DNA from: Sphingobium sp. EP60837
GTDB taxonomy: Bacteria; Pseudomonadota; Alphaproteobacteria; Sphingomonadales; Sphingomonadaceae
Assembly: GCF_001658005.1 (NCBI RefSeq)
Contig: NZ_CP015986.1
Location: 682,001-746,000, forward strand
Direction: 5' to 3'
DNA length: 64,000 nucleotides
This document shows, in pieces, positions 17,163-50,856 of the stretch. The position numbers were made by a program, and so were the translations under genes. The notes under the pieces were generated by a model, which was not told the DNA's origin, made no database searches, and worked only from the letters and a program-made list of their open reading frames with translations. How positions within the stretch are numbered: the first letter of the stretch is position 1; every line of letters begins with the position of its first letter.

Positions 17163-17942
17163 TCAAGCGTTGGCGGCTGGCGCTTGCTGCCGGCGCACCC
17201 GCGCATAGGACATCATCCCGAACGGTATGGTGGTCAGATAGATGGCGCATATGAAGAGCAATGTGAGCCACGGATCGGTGATCAGCAGCGCAGCTAGCAG
17301 CCCTGCAACTGCAATTGCTTCCAGCCGGATCCGCTTGCGCAAGCGGAGCGCCGACCAGCTATAGGTGGCGATGTTGGATATCATCAGGAAGGCCGTGAAG
17401 GCGGTCCATGGCGCGACGACATACCAGGCCCGGAATATCTCCTGCCCCGTCACCAGCCACAGATAGAGCGGCACGAATGCCAGGCCAGCGCCCGCTGGAG
17501 CCGGCACGCCGGTCAGGAAACCTGCGGACTTATGGGGCTGCTCGTCCGCATCAATGTTCGCGTTGAACCGCGCCAGCCGCAGCGCGCAGGACAAAGCATG
17601 GGCCAGCGCGAAGATCCAGCCGAACTTGGGCATAGCGTGCAACGACCATAGATAAAGGGTCAGGGCCGGCGCGACGCCAAAGGCGATCGAATCAGACAGC
17701 GAATCCAGTTCTGCCCCGAATCGGCTTTCTCCACGAAGCAGCCGGGCGATCCGCCCATCCAGCCCGTCCAGAACTCCGGCGATCAGGATGGACAGTACCG
17801 CCCTCTCCCACTCGCCCGATATGCCGTAGCGAACGCCGGTCAGGCCAAAGCAGAGCGCCATCGCCGTAACAGCATTGGGCGCGACCATCCGCAACGTGAT
17901 GCCCCGGCGAAGCCCTCGCGGAATGGTGCGCCGCTGCCTCAT
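17163..17942 (-). CDS. pssA: CDP-diacylglycerol-serine O-phosphatidyltransferase
   Basis: A membrane CDP-alcohol phosphotransferase making phosphatidylserine. The family motif is complete: [18 protein letters not shown] with the downstream pair of Asp (D-G-x2-A-R-x8-G-x3-D-x3-D). About seven to eight hydrophobic spans in 259 residues fit the subclass II enzyme. It overlaps psd by 4 bases, and the two together make phosphatidylethanolamine. Substrate CDP-DAG comes from CdsA. Confidence 0.94.
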
Positions 17943-40096: not shown

Positions 40097-41329
40097 ATGA
40101 ACAGGCGTCCCAGAGTTGAGCCGCAGTTGCAGAATAACAATCCCATCATCGCCATCGGCAATTACGACTTCCGGCCCAGCGGCACAGTCGTGAAATCCAT
40201 CGAGATCGCAGCAGCCTGTGCAAAAGCGGGCCTGCCGGTCGAACTATGGGTAGTTCGGGACGAAGGCGCTTTGCGCGCACGCGTACCGGCCGGCGTGCCG
40301 GTTTTCGAGACGGGATCAGCGATGCGCCTGCACAACCGCGGTCTTGATCTGGCGCTTAATATTCCCGCCCTCGCCGCGGCCTTGCGCCGCCGCCGTCCTA
40401 CGCTGTTCCTGAGCGGTGGCAATCACCTCCACCTCGCCGCGCGAATTGCCCTTGGCCTGAGTGGCCGAAGGCGATCCATCCAGTTGGGCGCTCGCGCCAG
40501 CAATTCGGCGCATCATGGCAAGGCGACACGATGGCAGGCGCTGATCGGCACTTGGAGCAATCGCCTTAAATTCGGCGGTGCAGACTTTATCGTAGCTGTG
40601 TCTCACGCCCTGGCAGCGGAAATTCAAACCGCATTGCCCAAAAAGAGCGTGGGCATTATCGCCAATGGGGTTGATCTGGCGAAAGTCGATCGGCTTGTTT
40701 CTGCACCCTTCGCTCATCATTTCCTGGACGAACAGTGCGACCGTCCTCCACTGCTCGTCACCATCGGAAGAATCGTGCGGCAGAAGGGCTTCGATCTGCT
40801 CGTATCCGCTCTTGGCCGTCTGGACGATATTGGTGCTCGGTTAATGATCATTGGGGATGGTGACTCAACCAAGATAGCCGCACTCAAGAGCTTGGCCGAG
40901 GCAGAAGGCGTTGCCCATAGGGTTGCGTTGCTGGGCTATCAGGACAATCCGTTCGCTATCCTATCCAGAGCCGATCTCTTCGTCAGCGCGTCACGCTGGG
41001 AGGGCGCAAGCAACGCATTGATCGAAGCACTCGCTTGCGGGCTTCCGATCGTCGCCACCGATTGTCCCACCGGCAATCGCGAAGTGGTTGAAGCCGGTCC
41101 TTACGGGACGCTCGCACCTGTGGAGAACGTGGAAGGACTGGCCAATGCCATTCGAGCCGAACTGAAAACGAAACGCTCAAAAAACGAGCAGCGTGCTGGG
41201 GCTCACAGCCGATCGCTTGATCGCTGTTTGGAGAGCTGGGTGAAATTGCTAGAAGCCTGGCCGGAAAAGTTCGTAGATCAGTTCCCTTCCCATTTAGCTG
41301 ACACTTGTGAGCAACCTTGGGGCAGATGA
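40097..41329 (+). CDS. GT4-family glycosyltransferase
   Basis: A 410-residue GT-B glycosyltransferase. The N-terminal half starts IIAIGNYDFRPSGTVV (acceptor side) and the C-terminal half has TIGRIVRQKGFDLLVSAL and the E-x7-E motif EGASNALIE followed by ALACGLPIVATDCPTG, all GT4 signatures. The donor sugar cannot be read. The ATG at 40097 is preferred; a start at 39971 would add 42 low-complexity residues and nearly reach sdhB. It is the first gene of the surface-glycan set. Confidence 0.88.
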   Translation: MNRRPRVEPQLQNNNPIIAIGNYDFRPSGTVVKSIEIAAACAKAGLPVELWVVRDEGALRARVPAGVPVFETGSAMRLHNRGLDLALNIPALAAALRRRRPTLFLSGGNHLHLAARIALGLSGRRRSIQLGARASNSAHHGKATRWQALIGTWSNRLKFGGADFIVAVSHALAAEIQTALPKKSVGIIANGVDLAKVDRLVSAPFAHHFLDEQCDRPPLLVTIGRIVRQKGFDLLVSALGRLDDIGARLMIIGDGDSTKIAALKSLAEAEGVAHRVALLGYQDNPFAILSRADLFVSASRWEGASNALIEALACGLPIVATDCPTGNREVVEAGPYGTLAPVENVEGLANAIRAELKTKRSKNEQRAGAHSRSLDRCLESWVKLLEAWPEKFVDQFPSHLADTCEQPWGR

Positions 41330-41414
41330 ACTTGCTTGCTAAAACCCCTAACCTTAAGGCGTATGAGTTGTTCCCGGCTCCGGCACGCCGCGCCCCTTCG
41401 AGTAAGATTACGGC

Positions 41415-42557
41415 ATGAAGATTGCGTTTGTAACCTATGGCTTCGGACTGGGCGGCACGGATCGCGTATGCTGCCATCTTGCCCAGGGATTTCACGATAT
41501 GGGAGATGAGGTAACGATTTTAGCCTGCGCCCGTGGGGGTAAGGGCGAACCGGCGTTGAGAGACATCATAAAGGGCGGCCCGCCTGTCGCATTCCTTACA
41601 AATCGGAAATGGGGACATCGTCAGGCGCAAAAAATCATGTCGATGCTGGCCTATATACGCTGGCTCAGACGGGAACGTCCCGACTTTGTCGTCGCTACCG
41701 GAAATAACATCTGCCGTTTCACGGCACTGGGCTTCAGGCTCGCAGGCATGAAACGCACGAGCCGTCTCATCATTAAAACAACTAATCCGGTTCTACGCCC
41801 AAGAAAAAGTCTAGCTGAAAAAATTAGGCGCCGAGCGTTCGGCCGGGCATTTCTCGATGCATCCGCGGTGCTAACATTAAGTGAGGAGGAATCGCTGCTG
41901 CTTGCGCGAACTTTCCCGAAGTCGGCCACGCAATTTCGCGCGGTATATAATCCCTATCTCACGGCGGCCTTCGCGCAGGATCCCGCTGAAGGCCACGTCA
42001 ACGAAGCACCAAGTAGCTGGGACGATAAAAAGACGGTGATGCTGGCCGTTGGCCGGCTTCATCATCAAAAAAATTATCCCCGTATGCTCCGGGCTTTCGC
42101 GGCTCTTATCCAGGCGGGAAGAAGCAATTTGATGCTTCGAATCAGTGGCGATGGACCTGACCGCGAAGCCATAATCAGGTTAATTCAGAAGCTGAATATC
42201 GCCGACAATGTAGAATTGCTTGGCTACACAAATGATATCCGCGGATTGATGGCAGCAGCAGATGTCCTGCTATTGTCATCAGATTATGAAGGTCTGCCGG
42301 CCGTCGTAATCGAAGCGCTCGCCTGCAACTGCCCGGTAATTTCCACCAACTGCTTCCCAATGGCAAAGACGCTGCTGGGGTCTCTGCCACGTTGCGTTGT
42401 CGTTGAAGAGGGGAGCGCCGATGCTTTTACGGCCGCTTTAACTCAATGGCTGGACGGAGCACGGGAACGCCCCTCATTACGGCCCTATGCTTTACGCTAT
42501 TCCACTGCCAGTGCGATACAAAGCCATCGCGCTGCCATATTAGAGAGCTCTCTGTGA
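41415..42557 (+). CDS. GT4-family glycosyltransferase
   Basis: A 380-residue GT-B glycosyltransferase. It starts MKIAFVTYGFGLGGTDRV, the usual glycine-rich acceptor-side loop, and has AVGRLHHQKNYPRMLRAF and the E-x7-E motif EGLPAVVIE followed by ALACNCPVISTNC. Its G+C is visibly lower than the core genes around it, with AAA and ATA codons frequent. It overlaps the next gene by 4 bases, linking it to the CDP-alcohol phosphotransferase. The acceptor and donor are unknown. Confidence 0.9.
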   Translation: MKIAFVTYGFGLGGTDRVCCHLAQGFHDMGDEVTILACARGGKGEPALRDIIKGGPPVAFLTNRKWGHRQAQKIMSMLAYIRWLRRERPDFVVATGNNICRFTALGFRLAGMKRTSRLIIKTTNPVLRPRKSLAEKIRRRAFGRAFLDASAVLTLSEEESLLLARTFPKSATQFRAVYNPYLTAAFAQDPAEGHVNEAPSSWDDKKTVMLAVGRLHHQKNYPRMLRAFAALIQAGRSNLMLRISGDGPDREAIIRLIQKLNIADNVELLGYTNDIRGLMAAADVLLLSSDYEGLPAVVIEALACNCPVISTNCFPMAKTLLGSLPRCVVVEEGSADAFTAALTQWLDGARERPSLRPYALRYSTASAIQSHRAAILESSL

Positions 42558-43663
42558 AAGTCGCACGAACCAATATTGACCGCCTCGTTTTGCTCGGTAC
42601 GAATGATACCCTGATCTGGGGCATGACTAACGCTGAACGTATAGAGCGCATGGTGGTAGAGTCCGCTCAAAAAGGTTTGCGCGTTGCGGCTGACAACAGC
42701 TTAGCGGTAAATCTTGGGTTCGTATTTGATCCAATATTATTACGTGAGGTCTTACGGAACCCCCATCTAACCTTCGTTCAGAATGGTGAATTGCTAGTCG
42801 GGCAGATGCCGCCTAATGAAGTTGATATTCATCCCCTTCAGCAGGGCGGTCTTCAAATAATCGAACTTCGCGACGGGCATAAGGTGTACAATGAACAGCT
42901 ACGGAAGCTTGAGACGCCCTATGCTGAACGGCTGACCCCGCAGACCCGCCGATCTATTGAGCGACGCAGTTATTATGGCGCGTATAAAGGCGTAACGGAT
43001 ATTTTGACCAAGTATCTTTGGCCTGAACTGGCGCTGTGGTTAACCCGTGGAGCAGCTCAGATCGGAATGACCCCAAATATGATCACCGCCATTGGAGCTA
43101 TACTGTGCATAGCTGCAACATTCTTGTTTTCGCAGGGGCTCTACTGGACCGGAATGCTAGCTGGCTTTGGCTTCATGGTACTTGATACCGTTGATGGAAA
43201 GCTGGCCCGCTGCACTATCACTTCTTCGAAATGGGGAAATATATTCGATCATGGCATTGATCTCATCCACCCGCCATTCTGGTGGTATGCTTGGGCCGTC
43301 GGACTCTCAGCATGGGGACAACAATTGTCCGTTTCCATTTTCTGGGCCGTCATGGGCATTATCGTGGGAGGATATGTAGTCCAGCGCTTGATCGAAGGTG
43401 TATTCATGCGATCGTTCGAGGGCATGCATATCCATGTGTGGCAGCGGTTCGATACTTGGTTCCGGCTGATCACCGCGCGGCGCAATCCCAATATGGTGAT
43501 CCTGTTCGTCTCGCTCCTGGCTGGGCGGCCAGATCTGGGGCTGATCGCGCTTGCCTGGTGGACAGTGATTTCGCTGATCGTACATGCGGTGCGGTTGCTG
43601 CAAGCTTATGGTGAAAAGCGCGCGGGGCGGCCTATCGTCAGCTGGATGGAGGCGAGAGCATGA
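42554..43663 (+). CDS. CDP-alcohol phosphotransferase with degenerate nucleotidyltransferase-like N-domain
   Basis: A 369-residue protein beginning at a GTG that overlaps the previous stop. Residues 140-345 form a CDP-alcohol phosphotransferase domain with a complete motif at 211-236 (D-x2-D-G-x2-A-R-x8-G-x3-D-x3-D, starting DTVDGKLARC) and several membrane spans, so it should transfer a phospho-alcohol from CMP or accept one. Residues 1-115 look like a remnant sugar-nucleotidyltransferase fold (GMTNAERIERMVVESAQKG resembles the T-x2-E-R segment) but lack the G-x-G-x-R loop. Archaeal di-myo-inositol-phosphate-phosphate synthases have a similar layout. G+C rises sharply near 43440, inside the gene. 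Overlaps the HIT gene by 4 bases. Confidence 0.85.
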   Translation: MKVARTNIDRLVLLGTNDTLIWGMTNAERIERMVVESAQKGLRVAADNSLAVNLGFVFDPILLREVLRNPHLTFVQNGELLVGQMPPNEVDIHPLQQGGLQIIELRDGHKVYNEQLRKLETPYAERLTPQTRRSIERRSYYGAYKGVTDILTKYLWPELALWLTRGAAQIGMTPNMITAIGAILCIAATFLFSQGLYWTGMLAGFGFMVLDTVDGKLARCTITSSKWGNIFDHGIDLIHPPFWWYAWAVGLSAWGQQLSVSIFWAVMGIIVGGYVVQRLIEGVFMRSFEGMHIHVWQRFDTWFRLITARRNPNMVILFVSLLAGRPDLGLIALAWWTVISLIVHAVRLLQAYGEKRAGRPIVSWMEARA

Positions 43664-44088
43664 ATGAAACCATCAGAAGATTCGGATTCCCGCAAACGCT
43701 GGTGGCCGAGTTCGATCATTGGGTAGTGCTGCTGCGTCCGGCCCAGCCAACCTTGGGAGCGCTGGTGCTGGCGGCCAAGTCTGACGCCAGGGCTTTCGGG
43801 GCTCTTGAGGCGGCGGCCCATGCCGAACTGGCCGAGGTGACCAAGGCGATCGAGACAGCGCTTTCAGAAGCGATCGGTTATGAGAAGATCAATTATCTGA
43901 TGCTGATGATGGTCGATCCGCATGTCCATTTCCATGTCCTGCCCCGATATGAGGGCAGCAGGGAGCATGCCGGCATCGGCATAGCCGACGCAGGCTGGCC
44001 CGGGCAGCCCGACCTTGGCCAGGCGGTCAAGCTGGACAGCGACCAGGTCGCGGCACTGACCGGCTGGCTCAAACCCTATTTCGCGTAG
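43660..44088 (+). CDS. HIT-family hydrolase
   Basis: A 142-residue histidine-triad protein. The triad H88-V-H90-F-H92 (HVHFHVLPRY) is intact, and a mid-length alpha region precedes it. HIT enzymes hydrolyse or transfer nucleoside monophosphates from dinucleotides and phosphoramidates. It overlaps the phosphotransferase by 4 bases and its 3' end overlaps the convergent cytidylyltransferase by 13 bases. In this neighbourhood it could clear nucleotide side products such as CMP esters, but this is inference. Confidence 0.85.
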   Translation: MNETIRRFGFPQTLVAEFDHWVVLLRPAQPTLGALVLAAKSDARAFGALEAAAHAELAEVTKAIETALSEAIGYEKINYLMLMMVDPHVHFHVLPRYEGSREHAGIGIADAGWPGQPDLGQAVKLDSDQVAALTGWLKPYFA

Positions 44089-44840
44089 CGGCCTTCCGCC
44101 AGCCAGCGGGCGGTGAGCGCGTTGGCGGCATCGACATCCTGCGGGAAATCGACTTCCTGCCACTCCATGCCCTGAATCGATACCGTGCCGACGCGGTTGC
44201 CCTTCGCAATCAGATCGATCGCGCGGAGATACCAGCGCTCAACGCCCTCTGGCGTGCGCATCATCTGGTCGATCTGACTGCGGAAGATGGCGGGCCCCTC
44301 GCCCCGGAATGCGAGCATGCCGATCGATTCGGCATTGGTGTCGGGAGGCAGCAGACGCTTGCCGATGGCGTGCAGACGGCCGCTCGCGTCGCGGTTCACC
44401 TTCATGTCATCGTCATCATAGTCGCTTTTCACATCGACGGTGACGGTGATCGCATCCTGCGCGCCGCCGATCAGCTTCGCGACGATCTCGTCCGAAACGA
44501 TCGTGTCGCCGTTGAGGATGATGAAGTCCCGGTCCATTTCCTCCCGAGCGATCCAGCATGTGCCAAGATTGTCGGCGACCTGGAAGAAGGGGTTGAACAG
44601 CGTCCGGATGCGCGCGCCCGTTTCGCGATAGAGCTGCAGCGCATGATCCTCCACGCGCTCCGTGCGAAAGCCGGTGACCACGACGATGTCGCTCACCCCA
44701 TTGGCGACCAGCGCCGCCACCTGCCAGCTGATGAGAGTGCGACCATTGAAGTCGATCATGCATTTGGGCACGTCGCGCGTCAGTGGAAGGAGGCGCGAAC
44801 CCTGGCCGGCGGAGAGGATGATGGCTTTGCTGATGCTCAT
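44076..44840 (-). CDS. Phosphocholine-cytidylyltransferase-like nucleotidyltransferase
   Basis: A 254-residue nucleotidyltransferase. The N-terminal loop AGQGSRLLPLTRDVPK (residues 11-26) is complete, with the signature TCWIAREEM, DFIILNGDTIVSDE and the acidic SDYDDDDMKV. This is the LicC/phosphocholine or inositol-1-phosphate cytidylyltransferase type, which makes a CDP-alcohol from CTP and a phospho-alcohol. The neighbouring phosphotransferase would use its product. The start at 44840 (MSISKAIILS) is preferred to one at 44906. It is divergent from the flippase and on the opposite strand to its presumed partner. Confidence 0.85.
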   Translation of the reverse strand: MSISKAIILSAGQGSRLLPLTRDVPKCMIDFNGRTLISWQVAALVANGVSDIVVVTGFRTERVEDHALQLYRETGARIRTLFNPFFQVADNLGTCWIAREEMDRDFIILNGDTIVSDEIVAKLIGGAQDAITVTVDVKSDYDDDDMKVNRDASGRLHAIGKRLLPPDTNAESIGMLAFRGEGPAIFRSQIDQMMRTPEGVERWYLRAIDLIAKGNRVGTVSIQGMEWQEVDFPQDVDAANALTARWLAEGRYAK

Positions 44841-44957
44841 GGCATGGCGCCTTAATGCGTTTGCCTTGACTAGGGAAGCCGAGGAGATAATTGCCCTTCG
44901 CCCCACAAATCCCTAGATAGCGCCCGGCAGGCGGCGAGCGAAAGGCGCAGGACACAA

Positions 44958-46286
44958 GTGGACAGCAAGGACGGGTCGAGCGGGGCCAAGGAAGGCTTTG
45001 CCCGCATCCTGGCAAATACCGGCTGGCTGCTGGGCGGCAAGGGCGTGGGCGCGGTGCTTAGCCTTGCTTATCTGGCGATCGTCACACGGACGCTGGGCGT
45101 GGCCGATTTTGGTCGCTTCGCCCTGATCCTGAGCGCCGCGACGATCGTCAAGACGCTGGTTAGCTTCGAAAGCTGGCAGATTGTCGTGCGATACGGCCAA
45201 CCGCATCTGATGAGCGCCAATCATGATGCGCTGAACCGCGTGCTGCGCTTTTGCATCCTGATCGATCTTGCGTCCGCGGCAGCGGGAGGCGTGATCGCGG
45301 CGATTATCCTGGTGGCCTTTGGGCCGATGATGGAGCTGTCTTCCGCGATGGCGTGGCAGACATGGTTCTTCTGCATGGTAATGCTGATCACCATCCGCTC
45401 CTCCCCCACGGGCGTGCTACGCCTGTTCGACCGCTTCGATTCAGCGGCGGCGGCCGAAACCATGATACCGATCGGACGCATGATAGGCGCGGCGATCGCC
45501 TGGGCACTGATGCCCAATATCACTGGTTATCTTATTGCCTGGGGCGTAGCCGAACTGCTGTGCGCGGCTGTCTATTGGTCGCTGGCGCTGAAGGTGGGCG
45601 GGAACAAGCTGGGTGATTGGCGCACAGGGCGGGCGATGGAAGCGCGGCTGGAGAATCCCGGCATCGTCACCTTTCTGACGGCGACCAACATTCAGACCAC
45701 GCTGGTTTCGACCGGTCAGCAGCTGGCCGTGGTGGTTGTGGGCCTCTTCGCGGGGCCCGCGGGCGCGGGGCTCTATCGCCTGGCGAATCAGCTTGCCCAA
45801 GCGCTGACGAAGATTTCCGGCCTTCTCTCGCGCAGCATCTTCGTGGAACTGAGCCGGACCCACTCCAGCCATGGGACGGATGAGCTACGGACGCTCTTCC
45901 GGCGCACCAATCGGCTGGCCTATGTCGCAGGGGCGGTGATTATCGCGTTGATCCTGACAGTTGGCCATCCGCTGCTTGGGCTGATCGCTGGCAAGCCGTT
46001 CCTGCCCGCCTATCCGTTGCTGCTGTTATTGGGGATCGCGGCGTGCATCGACCTGCTAGGGGTAAGCTATAGGCCGTTATTGATGGCTACAGACCGTTCA
46101 GCGCTATCACTGCGGATCACGCTGATCACAACGCTGCTGCTACTCACGCTTCAAGCGGTTCTGCTGTCGATCCATGGCACGATCGGTGCAGCGAGCGCAA
46201 ATGTGATCGCATCAGCGGCGGGGTTCATCATGATGGGGTTGGCGAGCCGGAAGGCGATGAGGCGGGACGAGGCTCATCAAGGGTGA
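44958..46286 (+). CDS. Wzx-type polysaccharide flippase
   Basis: A 442-residue integral membrane protein of the MATE/MurJ-like polysaccharide transporter family, with about 12 to 14 spans and a typical start (NTGWLLGGKGVGAVLSLAYL). It would move undecaprenyl-linked or lipid-linked oligosaccharide across the inner membrane. It starts 117 bases from the divergent cytidylyltransferase. No Wzy polymerase or Wzz is present in the window. Confidence 0.85.
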   Translation: MDSKDGSSGAKEGFARILANTGWLLGGKGVGAVLSLAYLAIVTRTLGVADFGRFALILSAATIVKTLVSFESWQIVVRYGQPHLMSANHDALNRVLRFCILIDLASAAAGGVIAAIILVAFGPMMELSSAMAWQTWFFCMVMLITIRSSPTGVLRLFDRFDSAAAAETMIPIGRMIGAAIAWALMPNITGYLIAWGVAELLCAAVYWSLALKVGGNKLGDWRTGRAMEARLENPGIVTFLTATNIQTTLVSTGQQLAVVVVGLFAGPAGAGLYRLANQLAQALTKISGLLSRSIFVELSRTHSSHGTDELRTLFRRTNRLAYVAGAVIIALILTVGHPLLGLIAGKPFLPAYPLLLLLGIAACIDLLGVSYRPLLMATDRSALSLRITLITTLLLLTLQAVLLSIHGTIGAASANVIASAAGFIMMGLASRKAMRRDEAHQG

Positions 46287-46378
46287 CGGGGCTGTGTTTT
46301 AGGTCGATGAGAGGCGTGCCCTTGGTGAATAGCGGATGCCGTCGGGCTGCTCACGATCAAGGCCGGTCGCTAGTTTTC

Positions 46379-46460
46379 CGTCACCCCCGACTTGATCCAG
46401 GGTCCCGCTTAACATTGCAATCAGAACAAGCGGGATGCCGGCTCAAGGCCGGCATGACGG
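46379..46460. repeat. Large imperfect palindromic intergenic repeat
   Basis: Left arm starts CGTCACCCCCGACTTGATCC, the right arm ends CCGGCTCAAGGCCGGCATGA. They flank the central AACATTGCAATCAGAAC and pair as an imperfect inverted repeat. The type (CGTCATcCCCGACTTGATC) is familiar from alphaproteobacterial genomes. It lies in the 290-base gap after the flippase, which otherwise contains no gene I can support. Confidence 0.6.
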
Positions 46461-46576
46461 TAGAGTTGTCGGCTAACGACCAGAAATCGCCGTTCAATGT
46501 GCTGCCGTTATTTCTTAAAAGCCGACAACGGGATTAGACGTTGCCGCCGCCAGCACATCGCTGCAAATTCACGATC

Positions 46577-46789
46577 ATGAGTGACGCAGAATACGAATGG
46601 AAACCCCGCCCTCCAAATTTGCGCGAGCGAATCATTGCGGGCGTTTTCGTGGCGGTTCTTCTTTTTACCCTGGCCAGTGAGTACGCGGGATGGGACCTGT
46701 TCGCAGGCTACGAGAAGCAGGCCATAGCCCTGTTGATATTGATTGGATTGATCCTGCTTAGGTTCGCGCCATCGGTTCACCGCCGTTAG
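46577..46789 (+). CDS. Small two-span membrane protein
   Basis: A 70-residue protein starting MSDAEYEWKPRPP with two hydrophobic spans (about 22-40 and 51-63) and a short basic tail (VHRR). A longer frame from 46541 is less likely. I do not recognise a family. It is isolated among repeats. Confidence 0.5.
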   Translation: MSDAEYEWKPRPPNLRERIIAGVFVAVLLFTLASEYAGWDLFAGYEKQAIALLILIGLILLRFAPSVHRR

Positions 46790-46840
46790 CGACCAGTTTT
46801 TGCCGCTTAGGTCAGTAATCCGGGTTCCCGATTGCCGCAA

Positions 46841-47389
46841 TTAAACGACTTGGCCATTCGGTAATCGATACGGCACATGCAAAGCAGGATCGGGACTTTC
46901 GTGCCACTTTACGAGAAAATCCCAAGCTGCCTTTTCATGTGGGTGCGCCAGCCATCCCAGTTCCTCCCGATTTTTTCGATAGGTTTCGAGTAGCCCAGTT
47001 AAGGATTGCGGTACGCGATCAAGCCGGTCCTTGATGAGTCCGACCCACAGGTCAGCCGGAACCGGCAGGCCGTGTTCGACTTGAAAACCGCCCAGTACAT
47101 CGTCATTCGCTGTGTAATAGCCGACGAAGCCTCCTTGAAAAATACCGCTCTCCGTTCCCGGCTTATGTTGGTTCAACCACTGCCGAAGAGCGGGAATGTC
47201 GATGCCCACAACGCCGAAAAGTCGAAACCCCCAAGGCCTGCGTCGCGCATCGGGGGCGAAATAGGACGCGATCTCGGAAGACGATTGTTGCATCCAAACT
47301 TTATTCGCACCTTTGAACAGGCGCTTTTCGATAAAGCCTTCTGATTGAAACGCTTGAGACAACTCCGCCCGAAAACTGCGAATGTCCAT
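46841..47389 (-). CDS. Protein of unknown function
   Basis: A 182-residue soluble protein starting MDIRSFRAELSQAF (a GTG three codons earlier is possible). It is rich in W and G with segments such as YFAPDARRRPWGFRLFGVVG and LKWHESPD-like VKWHESPDP. The size, isolation and lack of partners recall polymorphic-toxin immunity proteins, but no signature supports that. No function is assigned. Confidence 0.5.
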   Translation of the reverse strand: MDIRSFRAELSQAFQSEGFIEKRLFKGANKVWMQQSSSEIASYFAPDARRRPWGFRLFGVVGIDIPALRQWLNQHKPGTESGIFQGGFVGYYTANDDVLGGFQVEHGLPVPADLWVGLIKDRLDRVPQSLTGLLETYRKNREELGWLAHPHEKAAWDFLVKWHESPDPALHVPYRLPNGQVV

Positions 47390-47544
47390 CGCCTCCACCT
47401 ATTCTACCGAAGCTGAGCTACGGATAGCTTCCTATGCCGACTGTCCAGAATTTCAAATGGATCGTCCGCAATCGGGGGAAATTCCGCCAAAGCAGACCGT
47501 CCCCAATCCACCCCTCAGCGTCGTTCCCAGCCCGCGAAATACCC

Positions 47545-47613
47545 CGCGCCGCTGATAACCCGCTGGTCGGGTTCGGGATGGGAAAGCGGCCCAGCGGCAG
47601 GCGACCATATGCG
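47545..47613. repeat. Degenerate island repeat, copy A
   Basis: The core contains TAACCCGCTGGTCGGG and CAGCGGCAGGCGACCA. It matches copies at 48034-48102 and 49553-49620 at many positions. The surrounding gap 47399-47718 (320 bases) holds no gene I can support; short open frames there coincide with the repeat and vary in all frames. Confidence 0.5.
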
Positions 47614-47718
47614 GTCCATTGGTTTGCGTTCGCTCGATCCCCATTGCAGACGCAAACACCGTGAGGCAGGATACACCAATTGGCGACCGGATCGGTCTTG
47701 CTACTTGGAAAATGGCAT

Positions 47719-47928
47719 ATGAACGTCAACAAAAAGCTACGATTGATAGAGTGGACGCTATTTGCTGCTTTATTGGTGTCTATAACCGGCGCAGGATTTT
47801 TCTATGAGTTATATAAAGAACAGATAGATGAAATATTTTTGGTCGTTTTGATCTTAGTTTACGTTCTGATATGTTACGCTTTTTATAGTTTTTCTCTCCA
47901 TGCCCTTATAAAACGGGTTAAACACTAG
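47719..47928 (+). CDS. Small two-span membrane protein
   Basis: A 69-residue protein starting MNVNKKLRLIEW with two hydrophobic spans (about 9-28 and 36-57). The DNA is markedly AT-rich (AAA, ATA, TTT codons), unlike the core genome, which suggests transfer. No family recognised. Confidence 0.5.
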   Translation: MNVNKKLRLIEWTLFAALLVSITGAGFFYELYKEQIDEIFLVVLILVYVLICYAFYSFSLHALIKRVKH

Positions 47929-48033
47929 GCGAGCGAAGTGCTGCTCCAACGTCCGAGATCAATTTTACGCTGCACAAAGCAGACAGATCGCTACCCAACC
48001 GCCACCGTCGCAGGTGACCCCGCGAAGCATTCC

Positions 48034-48102
48034 ATGCTGCCCTTAACCTGCTGTTCCGTTGAAGGGGAGCTAGCTGCCCAGCGGCAAGCCACCATTTGCG
48101 GG
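48034..48102. repeat. Degenerate island repeat, copy B
   Basis: Contains TTAACCTGCTGTTCCG and CAGCGGCAAGCCACCA, matching copies A and D. It lies in the 236-base gap before the NTF2-fold gene. A further partial relic is at 48892-48930 (AAGCCACCATTC and TTGAAGGGAGCTAT). Confidence 0.45.
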
Positions 48103-48164
48103 CATTCCGTTCCGCTGTATCGTCCCTCTAAAGCTGACATTCACATGATGAAACGCGGGGCAAT

Positions 48165-48554
48165 ATGCAGCAGACGAAGCCGAACTTACGAAAAGCCTTA
48201 AGGGCATTCATAGCGTTTGTAATCTTTGTCGTGACATGTCCGGCCCCTGCCGCTTCCGCCGCGTCAGACCATTGTATGCGTGCGGGTGAACCCACAAAGC
48301 CATTGGTCAACAAGGCTGAGACCGCCGCAGCTATCTTTTTGGCTGTAGAGGGGGACTTTTTCCCAACAGCAGATCGAATTTTTTATCCCGACATCGATGT
48401 AGAAGATGATGGCGCGCGCTGGTCCGTCAGTCGGGGGAAATCGCCGGAGGTTAATGCGGAGGGAGATGTCGCGGTCACGCATGGCGGCGGCCAGCTGGCC
48501 CTCAGCATCGCTAAGTGCGATGGCCGTATCTCCGATGTTTGGTTCGATAAATAG
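48165..48554 (+). CDS. Secreted NTF2-fold immunity-like protein
   Basis: A 129-residue protein with a clear signal peptide (hydrophobic FIAFVIFVVTC, cleavage near PAASA) and a small domain: ETAAAIFLAVEGDFF, then ARWSVSRG and GGGQLALSIAKCDGRISDVW. The pattern (helix with A-x3-A, W-x-V strand, GG...I-x-K-x-DG-x-I at the end) resembles the NTF2-fold immunity family (YbbC/YhhH type). If right, it would protect the periplasm from a contact-dependent toxin; no toxin gene is nearby. Confidence 0.55.
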   Translation: MQQTKPNLRKALRAFIAFVIFVVTCPAPAASAASDHCMRAGEPTKPLVNKAETAAAIFLAVEGDFFPTADRIFYPDIDVEDDGARWSVSRGKSPEVNAEGDVAVTHGGGQLALSIAKCDGRISDVWFDK

Positions 48555-48631
48555 CGACCACAAGCGGGCATTTACGACGCTGTAGCATCCTGCCAAAATC
48601 AGACTCCCCGGAGGGAGGCACGGGCCGCGTT

Positions 48632-48826
48632 ATGTTCCGACTTTTGCTTGGCGAGATGGTCCGGAGAGTGATGTTACCCCTCCTTCCGTTTCAATTCCTG
48701 ATCGTTGCGCTCAATCTCGCGGGGTACGTGGAGAACGAAACGTTTATATCGTCGATGAGGATGATAGCGTTTGCGTACATCATCTCCGTCTTATTGGAAG
48801 CGGTGTACGGCGTACGGAAATGGTGA
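48632..48826 (+). CDS. Small two-span membrane protein
   Basis: A 64-residue protein starting MFRLLLGEMVRRV with two hydrophobic segments (about 14-30 and 43-58) and a short basic C-terminus. Upstream is CCGGAGGGAGG, a good ribosome-binding site but far from the ATG (about 12 bases). No family recognised. Confidence 0.45.
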   Translation: MFRLLLGEMVRRVMLPLLPFQFLIVALNLAGYVENETFISSMRMIAFAYIISVLLEAVYGVRKW

Positions 48827-48922
48827 GACTACTCATCGGTGCTCGCCATGGGCCCTTTACGCTTTCGTAAGGCAACGGTGAGCACCCGACCAGAAGCCAC
48901 CATTCTGTCGGCTTGAAGGGAG

Positions 48923-49321
48923 CTATCGCCATTTTATTTTGTTCGAAAACTTACCTGCTGTTAGTTGTCCATTCGCGTCCAGAGCGGGCAAAAAGCGGGC
49001 CCGTGTAGACAGAAGATTGCATGCTATTGCGTTCCATTCTTGCGGGGCATCGCTTGATGTCACTTCACACCGCACAACTTTCCCCTCTGCGTCGATATGG
49101 AGCGTGTACTTGGTCGTCCCATTAACGCTATTAAAGCGTGGAAACAGATCGCTGTCTTCGGGGGTGATCCAGGAGAATGGGCTCGATCGCGGTATGGGTT
49201 TGCTCCGGTCTAATTTTGACGGAGGAATTATCTTTGCGCCTTTCGGCATGTCCGAAGCGAAGGTCGGCAGAGCGGCGAGCCAGATGACGAAGACTGTCGT
49301 CGTGAATATACTTTTGTTCAT
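48923..49321 (-). CDS. Secreted protein with TonB C-terminal-type domain
   Basis: A 132-residue protein with a signal peptide (ending near LPTFAS) and a C-terminal domain (about 65-132) that begins VNGTTKYTLHIDAEGKVVRC and continues through a paired Cys in SNDA-like SDAPQEWNAIACNLL. This is the TonB C-terminal (energy transducer) fold, here without a membrane anchor. Proteins of this type are common as orphans in sphingomonads; role unknown. Confidence 0.6.
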   Translation of the reverse strand: MNKSIFTTTVFVIWLAALPTFASDMPKGAKIIPPSKLDRSKPIPRSSPFSWITPEDSDLFPRFNSVNGTTKYTLHIDAEGKVVRCEVTSSDAPQEWNAIACNLLSTRARFLPALDANGQLTAGKFSNKIKWR

Positions 49322-49552
49322 GGCCCAATTTTCCGCTCGGAGAAGGACTTGATATTTAGGTGCTGTGGGCTTGTTGGGCGGGGAGTGTCAACTCCGGAAG
49401 GTTGCCCTAACTCTTTGTGCCAATCTAGTCGGAGAGAGGATGCCCTTGAAGCGCGTTGACAGCGGCAGTCATGGCAGCTTCGAAGAAAATTTGTCCGTGA
49501 GCCGACAGTCTGTTCACCACCCGGCATCGTCGTTCGGAGCCTGCAAATCGGA

Positions 49553-49620
49553 GCACGCCGCCTGTAACCTGCTGGTCCGGTGCGGTGCGAAAGCCGCCGA
49601 GCGGCAGGCGACCAAGCGCC
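49553..49620. repeat. Degenerate island repeat, copy D
   Basis: Contains TAACCTGCTGGTCCGG and GAGCGGCAGGCGACCA, close to copy A. It lies in the gap 49322-49669 (348 bases), which holds no gene I can support; a plus-strand open frame of 94 codons there overlaps the repeat and shows no signature. Confidence 0.5.
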
Positions 49621-49669
49621 GTCATAATGATTGGCCGGACGACCTTTAAAAAGCAGGTGCTGGCGCATC

Positions 49670-49933
49670 TTACCTTTCAGCGCTTAAAACCTGATAGATC
49701 GTCCTTAGAATATCATCTCCGGAGTCCGAATCAGATATGAAGCAAGGCTCATCCCATTCGCCTTGAAAAGTAAAGCTGCTGCCTCCGAAACGGTATTCTG
49801 CTGAGAAGCCATATTGCTGTATTTCTGGTCGGCCAAACTGATCAAGAATTGTTGCTTTCACCGACGGCATATCGGAAGGTTCAAATTCCAGTGAGTAGTG
49901 GCCTGTCGAAAGAGCGAGCAATGATGCGGTCAT
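49670..49933 (-). CDS. Small soluble protein of unknown function
   Basis: An 87-residue acidic protein with no signal peptide or span. Segments such as SAEYRFGGSSFTFQGEWDEP suggest a beta-rich domain. Start could be the internal ATG at 49870. No family recognised; it may be another immunity-like orphan. Confidence 0.4.
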   Translation of the reverse strand: MTASLLALSTGHYSLEFEPSDMPSVKATILDQFGRPEIQQYGFSAEYRFGGSSFTFQGEWDEPCFISDSDSGDDILRTIYQVLSAER

Positions 49934-50043
49934 GCCCTATCGATGCAGCGGTGGCGTTCATTGTGCAAGGTAGTTCGAACGTCTGCTATCGGTCGCCGTC
50001 GCATCTATACCCGACAGTCCGCAATCCACCCATTTCCGTCCAT

Positions 50044-50856
50044 TCAGATGGAGTCTCTCACCGAGCTGACAGCGCTTGTTTTCCCGCGCAATATGTCTTC
50101 GATCAGCGTTACATCTTCACCTTTGTCGGCGTCGATGCAGGCTTCGGCCTTTTGCATAGCGACCAGTTTGGCGCTTAGGCCAAAACGGCGGCCTATCCGG
50201 GCTATGCCGCTGCGCAGTGCCAAGAGCCGCAGCAGGGCGCCGAGCAGCACCAAGGGGCCGAAGGCGGCAAGGATCTTCCATCCCTTTTTGCGGTCCTGTT
50301 CGACTTCCTGCCAGAGCGAGATGACGGCATGTGCCTTAGCGCTGCCGAACCAGAAGAGGTTGGCGCCCGACCACCAGCCGTCACGGAATTTGAGCCAAGT
50401 GCGGCGGGAGGCGGGGTAGCGCGCGAGCAGCGTCGCGCGCTCCACCATGGCGACGGCGATGTCAGCCCCCTGCCCTTCCGTCAGGAACTGGTCGAGCATA
50501 TCCGTGTCGAGGAGGACATGGTCCGCCGTGGTCACGAGCAGTGGGAAAGGCAAATCCGGGCGATCGAGCAGGCCAAGCAGCGTGGAGGCAATGCCGCTGT
50601 TGCTCGCTTCGAAGCGGACCTGCGGATGATCGCCGAGCCATGCTGTGGCGGGCTCTGCCTTATATAGCTCTGGCGTCTGAGTCAGGATGACAAGCTGCCC
50701 AATCGACGGGTGGGCCAGCAAGGCCCGCGCGGGATAGTTGATCATCGGTTCGCCTGCGACCGGAGCCAGCGGCTTCACGGGAACGCCTGCGGCAAGCGCA
50801 AGCGGATCGGAACCGGGGCGCGATCCGGCGAGCAACAGGGCGGTGATCTTCGTCAT
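50044..50856 (-). CDS. NTP-transferase family protein (MobA-like)
   Basis: A 270-residue protein with a nucleotidyltransferase fold: LLLAGSRPGSDPLA, then KPLAPVAGEPMINYPARALL and a metal-site TTADHVLLDTDML. The first loop differs from the usual G-x-G-x-R, so the activity is uncertain. A hydrophobic stretch follows residue 183 (AAFGPLVLLGALLRLLAL), suggesting membrane association. It may work with the cytidylyltransferase at 44 kb, as I recall such genes near each other in sphingomonads. Confidence 0.7.
   Translation of the reverse strand: MTKITALLLAGSRPGSDPLALAAGVPVKPLAPVAGEPMINYPARALLAHPSIGQLVILTQTPELYKAEPATAWLGDHPQVRFEASNSGIASTLLGLLDRPDLPFPLLVTTADHVLLDTDMLDQFLTEGQGADIAVAMVERATLLARYPASRRTWLKFRDGWWSGANLFWFGSAKAHAVISLWQEVEQDRKKGWKILAAFGPLVLLGALLRLLALRSGIARIGRRFGLSAKLVAMQKAEACIDADKGEDVTLIEDILRGKTSAVSSVRDSI

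Follow-up and report, generated by a model that had tools for sequence, protein, structure and literature searches.

A Sphingobium gene group for the likely synthesis and export of a sphingolipid with a phosphoglycerate headgroup

Seven genes lie within about 11 kb of the window, our name for the whole 64,000-nucleotide stretch analysed here (C1:682001-746000, where C1 is contig NZ_CP015986.1, in the 4.26 Mb genome of Sphingobium sp. EP60837). They encode two family 4 glycosyltransferases (GT4a and GT4b), a CDP-alcohol phosphotransferase (PT), a HIT-domain protein, a LicC-like cytidylyltransferase, a Wzx-like protein of the MOP family and a second nucleotidyltransferase (NT2). Judged from the gene sequences and their relatives, the most likely role of the group is to fit a bacterial sphingolipid with a phosphoglycerate headgroup and to export the product.

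Genes of the locus

A preliminary description of this DNA had called the same seven genes, and a profile search of the window proteins recovers them all, each with the proposed domain type and a score above the family cut-off (Table 1). It had also placed HIT and PT in one overlapping operon. The overlaps are real: PT starts with a GTG at 42554, in a GTGA common to the GT4b stop and the PT start, an ATGA is common to the PT stop and the HIT start, and the convergent HIT and LicC genes overlap by 13 bases. The seven do not form a single operon: LicC and NT2 are encoded on the opposite strand, and a 3.76 kb insert separates Wzx from NT2. In a locus of the same genus (L036), Wzx and NT2 adjoin and the insert is absent at that place; it is probably not part of the system. 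One open reading frame (ORF) within it, 48923-49321 (-), has a sub-threshold TonB_C match. A scan of the region's ten ORFs turned up no polymerase match, in keeping with the short lipid-linked product proposed earlier, and an ARAGORN search of the window gave no tRNA.

Table 1. Features of the locus, in window coordinates
Feature	Positions	Strand	Remarks
GT4a, family 4 glycosyltransferase	40097-41329	+	PF13692/PF00534 above cut-off; slot between sdhB and PT
GT4b, family 4 glycosyltransferase	41415-42557	+	PF00534 above cut-off; same variable slot as GT4a
PT, CDP-alcohol phosphotransferase, CpgA (CC_1159) type	42554-43663	+	PF01066 38.4 bits, cut-off 22
HIT-domain protein, positional counterpart of CC_1157	43660-44088	+	PF01230 25.4, cut-off 21.5
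LicC-like cytidylyltransferase, CpgD (CC_1152) type, predicted CDP-glycerate maker	44076-44840	-	PF00483 50.3, cut-off 21.2
Wzx-like MOP-family protein, likely lipid flippase	44958-46286	+	PF01943 41.8, cut-off 28.2
Low-GC insert with small ORFs, probably outside the system	46287-50043	.	G+C 0.534; between Wzx and NT2
NT2, MobA/IspD-fold nucleotidyltransferase, CC_1153 type	50044-50856	-	PF12804 38.9, cut-off 27

Counterparts in Caulobacter and elsewhere in the genome

The set had been thought possibly undescribed, but its core has a characterised counterpart in the Caulobacter pathway for ceramide diphosphoglycerate (CPG2), for which the activities of CpgB and CpgD and the lipids of mutants have been reported (PMC11324152, PMC12275187, PMC13228409). 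The C. crescentus locus CC_1152-CC_1168 has the content of the NT2 neighbourhoods that we found, and CC_1159, CC_1153 and CC_1152 are required to convert ceramide phosphoglycerate (CPG) to CPG2 (PMC11324152). A metallophosphoesterase scan of named genomes, which returned 80 loci, located the corresponding region of C. segnis FS (L184). Its genes, in order and with the C. crescentus genes as which we read them, are a fatty acid hydroxylase (CC_1167 or a neighbour), a MOP protein (CC_1166), an AMP-binding enzyme, an epimerase-type reductase, ACP and an Spt-type aminotransferase (CC_1165-CC_1162), family F30 (CpgC), a DAGK kinase (CpgB), PT (CpgA), the metallophosphoesterase (CC_1158), HIT (CC_1157), two LptF/LptG proteins (CC_1156 and CC_1155), a GNAT-like CerS (CC_1154), NT2 (CC_1153) and LicC (CpgD).

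Five of the seven window genes have counterparts there: PT (44% identity), HIT (51%), the LicC-like gene (48%), the Wzx-like gene (30%) and NT2 (36%). In C. segnis these stand beside Spt, CerS, CpgB and CpgC, with HIT between the metallophosphoesterase and LptF2, and NT2 adjoining CerS. Counterparts of CC_1159, CC_1153 and CC_1152, all needed by Caulobacter for the CPG-to-CPG2 step, thus lie in the window, as do the HIT and MOP proteins. Other pathway genes lie further along the same contig: CerS at C1:779435-780577 (E 1.3e-129), Spt at C1:2253804-2254997 (54%, E 6.2e-135) with ACP nearby, a CpgC-like gene at C1:2250866-2251714 (42%, E 4.1e-36), and LptF- and LptG-like genes between CerS and a CpgB-like kinase. 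Such scattering of pathway genes in Sphingomonadales has already been reported (PMC11324152), and Sphingomonas wittichii orthologues are noted in the Caulobacter papers (PMC11324152, PMC12275187, PMC13228409); the open-licence literature searched yielded no paper on a phosphosphingolipid in Sphingobium.

Conservation across genomes

PT was searched against 246 Sphingomonadales genomes (the order sample), 95 of which match at 1e-5 and 41 at E<=1e-60. Around the strong matches we collected 40 loci (L035-L074, from 38 genomes, 12.9-20 kb), all containing PT by selection. NT2 is present in 34, LicC in 25 (four of them divergent), HIT in 20 and a Wzx-type gene in 12, and PT, HIT, LicC and NT2 occur together in 18. 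In two loci from Sphingomonadaceae (L049 and L050), NT2, the CpgC-like F30, a DAGK-type lipid kinase (F23), PT, HIT, LicC and Wzx are contiguous. Clustering the ORFs of the 40 loci yields a HAD protein in 17, family F4 in 14, F23 in 7 and F30, for which no Pfam family matched, in 6. F4 matches CDP-glycerol glycerophosphotransferase below threshold (PF04464, E 0.0036) and is a candidate headgroup transferase. Separately, F4 recurs beside a flippase or PT in sphingolipid loci (L184, 12-557; L153, 1916-3019; L035, 10580-11653).

A class sample comprised 240 genomes each for LicC and NT2, and 20 of its loci were read. There, NT2 stands beside a GNAT-like CerS candidate, a fatty acid hydroxylase and LptF/LptG genes, to which one locus (L147) adds HIT, the metallophosphoesterase, PT, F23 and F30. 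CerS is present in all 26 class genomes with NT2 and all 17 with LicC (E<=1e-60; 78 match at 1e-8), versus 32 of 240 overall, a figure that leaves out G427 (E 1.5e-18) from 33. The strong LicC set of the order sample is 38 of 44 genomes (E<=1e-25), without G056, G148, G172, G225, G239 and G157 (28-36%); with these six weaker genomes kept, LicC is found in 41 of 41 PT genomes. The co-occurrence cut-offs were picked after score gaps had been seen. These counts across genomes place the gene set beyond chance, and the genes do co-occur across sphingomonads (40 loci; 246 genomes), a point that the preliminary description had left to be checked.

The CDP-alcohol enzymes and the flippase candidate

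CpgD makes CDP-glycerate, with 2-phospho-D-glycerate preferred (PMC12275187, PMC13228409). When 35 LicC-like proteins are aligned, the one from the window keeps 12 of the 12 CpgD contact sites for CDP-2-D-glycerate that were checked (G12, R16, K26, N90, T93, N110, G111, D112, M147, K161, S170 and W201), those from 110 onward being placed by motif because the numbering drifts, one or two columns off the C. segnis count. The full set is found in 27 of the 35, with T or S accepted at 93. These residues indicate that the donor is probably CDP-glycerate and not CDP-choline or CDP-inositol, so that glycerate most likely replaces the choline or inositol suggested earlier, and they do not bear out a dNDP-sugar as the product. 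Departures from the full set include Ala at 170 (L072, L073 and L146) and Tyr at 201 (L142). In four divergent LicC-like proteins (L051-L054, 32-36%), site 90 is Ser and site 201 is Phe or Tyr. Their genes adjoin F4 and PT in genomes without a HIT match, and they possibly serve another CDP-alcohol.

The PT motif (DTVDGKLAR...G..xD...D) is kept in 19 of 19 aligned proteins, and Sphingobium herbicidovorans supplies the best named relative other than the entry for the window itself (83% over 94%). In a tree of 86 sequences, the window PT groups with the C. segnis CpgA-position protein in a clade of 61 leaves (support 0.945), and nine sequences (PTb) split from the 77 others (support 0.98). PTb is a second, separate CDP-alcohol phosphotransferase family, seen in sphingolipid clusters L136, L149, L168, L175, L186, L189, L195 and L230, mostly between LptG2 and CerS or a hydroxylase. 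The window itself has a further CDP-alcohol phosphotransferase domain outside this locus (17427-17888 (-), 77 bits).

For the PT model (pLDDT 84.7) the best structural match is AF2299 (4O6M), and for the NT2 model (pLDDT 90.0) it is 2dpw, followed by IspD and TarI structures. The Wzx-like protein is the better of the genome's two own matches to the MOP protein of the C. segnis ceramide locus (30%). The earlier picture of a LicC-type CDP-alcohol enzyme, PT as its user and a flippase-type protein appears sound on these comparisons.

The HIT protein

HIT enzymes split or move nucleotides by way of a nucleotidyl-histidine, and the superfamily motif is His-x-His-x-His, in which the middle His is catalytic. 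The window HIT protein carries this motif as well as scoring above the PF01230 cut-off; His90 and His92 are invariant in 15 of 15 proteins, and the first residue is His in 6, Asp in 7 and Gln in 2.

Across the order sample, HIT is present in 36 of 38 strong-LicC genomes and 0 of 208 others (36 genomes with both, two with LicC only, none with HIT only). PT and HIT share 35 of the 246 genomes. Their combination in one overlapping operon had earlier been remarked on as unusual, and a notable link between the two is supported. Seven genomes are listed for the window's genus, four with PT, LicC and HIT and three with none of them. In G103 all three are present but far apart (C1:967485, C1:103141 and C3:153287 of that genome). 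In the class sample, HIT occurs in 20 genomes, 13 with CerS and 7 without, and 4 of the 17 LicC genomes lack it. The close HIT relatives without a strong CerS match are in G269, G300, G400, G421, G427, G454 and G474.

A further count used the 49 of the 80 named loci that are at least 20 kb long, all picked by their metallophosphoesterase. Defining a headgroup cluster as at least three of CerS, CpgC, CpgB, NT2 and CpgA, 24 of the 49 qualify. HIT is in 21 of these 24, adjoining LptF2 in 18, and in 0 of the 25 other loci, 10 of which hold CerS; it is missing from L156, where CpgA is missing too, and from L167 and L189. Alpha-, beta- and gammaproteobacteria and one Nitrospirales record are the sources of the clusters. 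That record (L211, Nitrospirales bacterium NPIRA01), from outside the Proteobacteria, has two CpgA matches and matches to CpgB, CpgC, CpgD, NT2, CerS and HIT.

CC_1157 has been listed as probably unrelated to phosphosphingolipids (PMC11324152), and no paper connecting the HIT family with sphingolipids in Caulobacter was found in the open-licence literature searched. The counts in the same source imply, by our own arithmetic (13 of the 17 genes are retained and the four missing ones are named as others), that CC_1157 is retained in beta- and gammaproteobacterial clusters without CC_1158. It also describes the loss of CC_1158 as incomplete in effect and suggests a substitute gene (PMC11324152). 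We infer that the HIT protein probably splits or moves a nucleotide on an activated intermediate of the headgroup step. Its link to the headgroup module is new.

A variable slot beside PT

The G+C content at third codon positions is 0.616 in GT4a, 0.543 in GT4b and 0.57 in PT, versus 0.73-0.82 in HIT, LicC, Wzx and NT2. Compared with the same-genus locus L036, PT is 64% identical, LicC 93%, SdhB 92%, HIT 79%, Wzx 77% and NT2 76%. At the thresholds used for the other genes, GT4a is found in 0 and GT4b in 1 of the 40 PT loci. GT4a has relatives of up to 95% identity in the protein collection, and contigs of equal size carry GT4a relatives and PT relatives in at least four cases (5702, 41865, 573882 and 2860), a sign that other Sphingobium probably have the same pairing. 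Relatives have other genes between sdhB and PT: L036 and L039 have F4, L037 and L038 combine F4 with a MOP protein and HAD, and L047 has an FkbM-type methyltransferase. GT4a, GT4b and PT thus resemble a low-GC cassette that can be exchanged, occupying a slot filled by different finishing enzymes in relatives, and the GT4 enzymes probably act on the sphingolipid, adding a sugar to its headgroup in this strain. This strain-variable sdhB-PT slot is new.

Discussion

Very probably, this locus represents the Sphingobium version of the Caulobacter phosphosphingolipid headgroup module, a variant of the CPG2 type. Spt, ACP and CerS, encoded elsewhere in the genome, would make ceramide, which the CpgB-like kinase would phosphorylate, and the CpgC-like protein would help to convert the product to CPG. 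The LicC-like enzyme is predicted to form CDP-glycerate from CTP and 2-phosphoglycerate, and the membrane-bound PT to move phosphoglycerate from it onto the lipid with release of CMP; NT2 would be required for the same CPG-to-CPG2 step, of which the HIT protein would be a part. The Wzx-type protein may then flip the lipid, its presumed substrate, and LptF2/LptG2-like proteins encoded elsewhere would carry it outward, while the two GT4 enzymes probably put a sugar on the headgroup.

Several observations weigh against this reading. The CC numbers, including CC_1157 for HIT, were assigned through C. segnis gene order and not from C. crescentus proteins, and there is one mismatch: CC_1168 is named LptC2 (PMC11324152), yet the gene to the left of the L184 hydroxylase resembles F4. 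The CpgB-like, DAGK-type kinase (C1:774208-775146) is only 27-29% identical (29% at E 6.8e-18), and DAGK proteins form a broad family. The three stretches examined showed no AasR, CerR, hydroxylase or strong CC_1158 relative, the search for these not being genome-wide. A tree did not establish orthology between Wzx and the Caulobacter MOP protein, the genome's second own MOP protein (L240) falling among non-sphingomonad sequences. Fisher values for the co-occurrences are overstated because genomes share descent. Finally, among PDB sequences the LicC-like protein still matches LicC of Streptococcus pneumoniae best. This last match, with the two GT4 genes and the Wzx-type protein, would fit the original proposal that the genes make a glycan or glycolipid bearing phosphocholine, phosphoinositol or a similar group. 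We regard that proposal as improbable and a sphingolipid as the most likely acceptor: GT4a and GT4b are unstable whereas PT, NT2, LicC and HIT recur, LicC and NT2 track CerS, and S. pneumoniae LicC has D-A-D where CpgD and the window protein have N-G-D.

Still less probable is an inositol phospholipid or di-inositol-phosphate pathway, in which the nucleotidyltransferase would be an inositol-phosphate cytidylyltransferase and PT a PIP or DIPP synthase. PT does match NF045883 and NF041135 weakly, and its model matches AF2299 and PIP synthases, but the scores are far from the family cut-offs (49.4 versus 170 bits and 27.6 versus 580 bits, respectively), the LicC residues are of the glycerate type and the neighbours in relatives are sphingolipid genes. 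Family cut-offs, PDB matches and residues led us to set the inositol and choline readings aside. A rather unlikely but more serious alternative accepts the sphingolipid pathway and takes HIT for a housekeeping bystander, as was assumed for CC_1157 (PMC11324152). It draws on the seven of 240 class genomes with HIT but without CerS, the 4 of 17 LicC genomes without HIT and the lack of any lipid phenotype found in print. The split of 36/38 versus 0/208 in the order sample, which extends to the unlinked genes of G103, and the presence of HIT in 21 of 24 headgroup clusters but in none of the 10 loci with CerS and no headgroup set, argue against it. More tentatively still than the module itself, one could imagine that HIT is a missing nucleotide-handling CPG2 enzyme that acts on CDP-glycerate or a CDP-activated lipid by way of a nucleotidyl-histidine and stands in for CC_1158 where that gene is absent, and that the sdhB-PT interval is a slot through which Sphingobium strains change the outer portion of a sphingolipid headgroup, here leading to a sugar-bearing phosphoglycerate sphingolipid. 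This is possible but doubtful; we found no description of such a lipid in the literature searched.

Some sphingomonads lack lipopolysaccharide (LPS) and depend on sphingolipids. CPG2 supports LPS-free C. crescentus and has been linked to polymyxin sensitivity (PMC12275187, PMC11324152), while the chemistry after ceramide 1-phosphate is stated to be open (PMC11324152). Our comparison ties in a HIT-family enzyme so far overlooked, which may help to fill in a half-known lipid pathway. It also predicts which sphingomonads make CPG2-type lipids, and the strain-variable slot could diversify the outer-membrane lipid.

Among known systems, two resemble single proteins of the locus. AF2299, a CDP-alcohol phosphotransferase with a cytidylyltransferase-like N-terminal domain, aligns with PT over 371 columns for 369 PT residues, but at 18% identity and with other substrates expected. 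S. pneumoniae LicC (1JYK), a phosphocholine cytidylyltransferase, shares the fold family of the LicC-like protein, but the alignment spans only residues 5-108 of the latter. The Caulobacter CPG2 locus (CC_1152-CC_1168/cpgABCD) is alike in both sequence and order for the counterparts of CpgA, CpgD, CC_1153, HIT and the MOP protein, and the Sphingobium genome has CerS, Spt, ACP and LptF/LptG-like genes elsewhere, together with the CpgC-like gene and the weakly similar kinase. It differs in that the Sphingobium genes are split over at least three places, that the stretches examined show no strong relative of the metallophosphoesterase CC_1158 (the best has 26%, E 8.6e-6), and that two GT4 genes stand beside PT.

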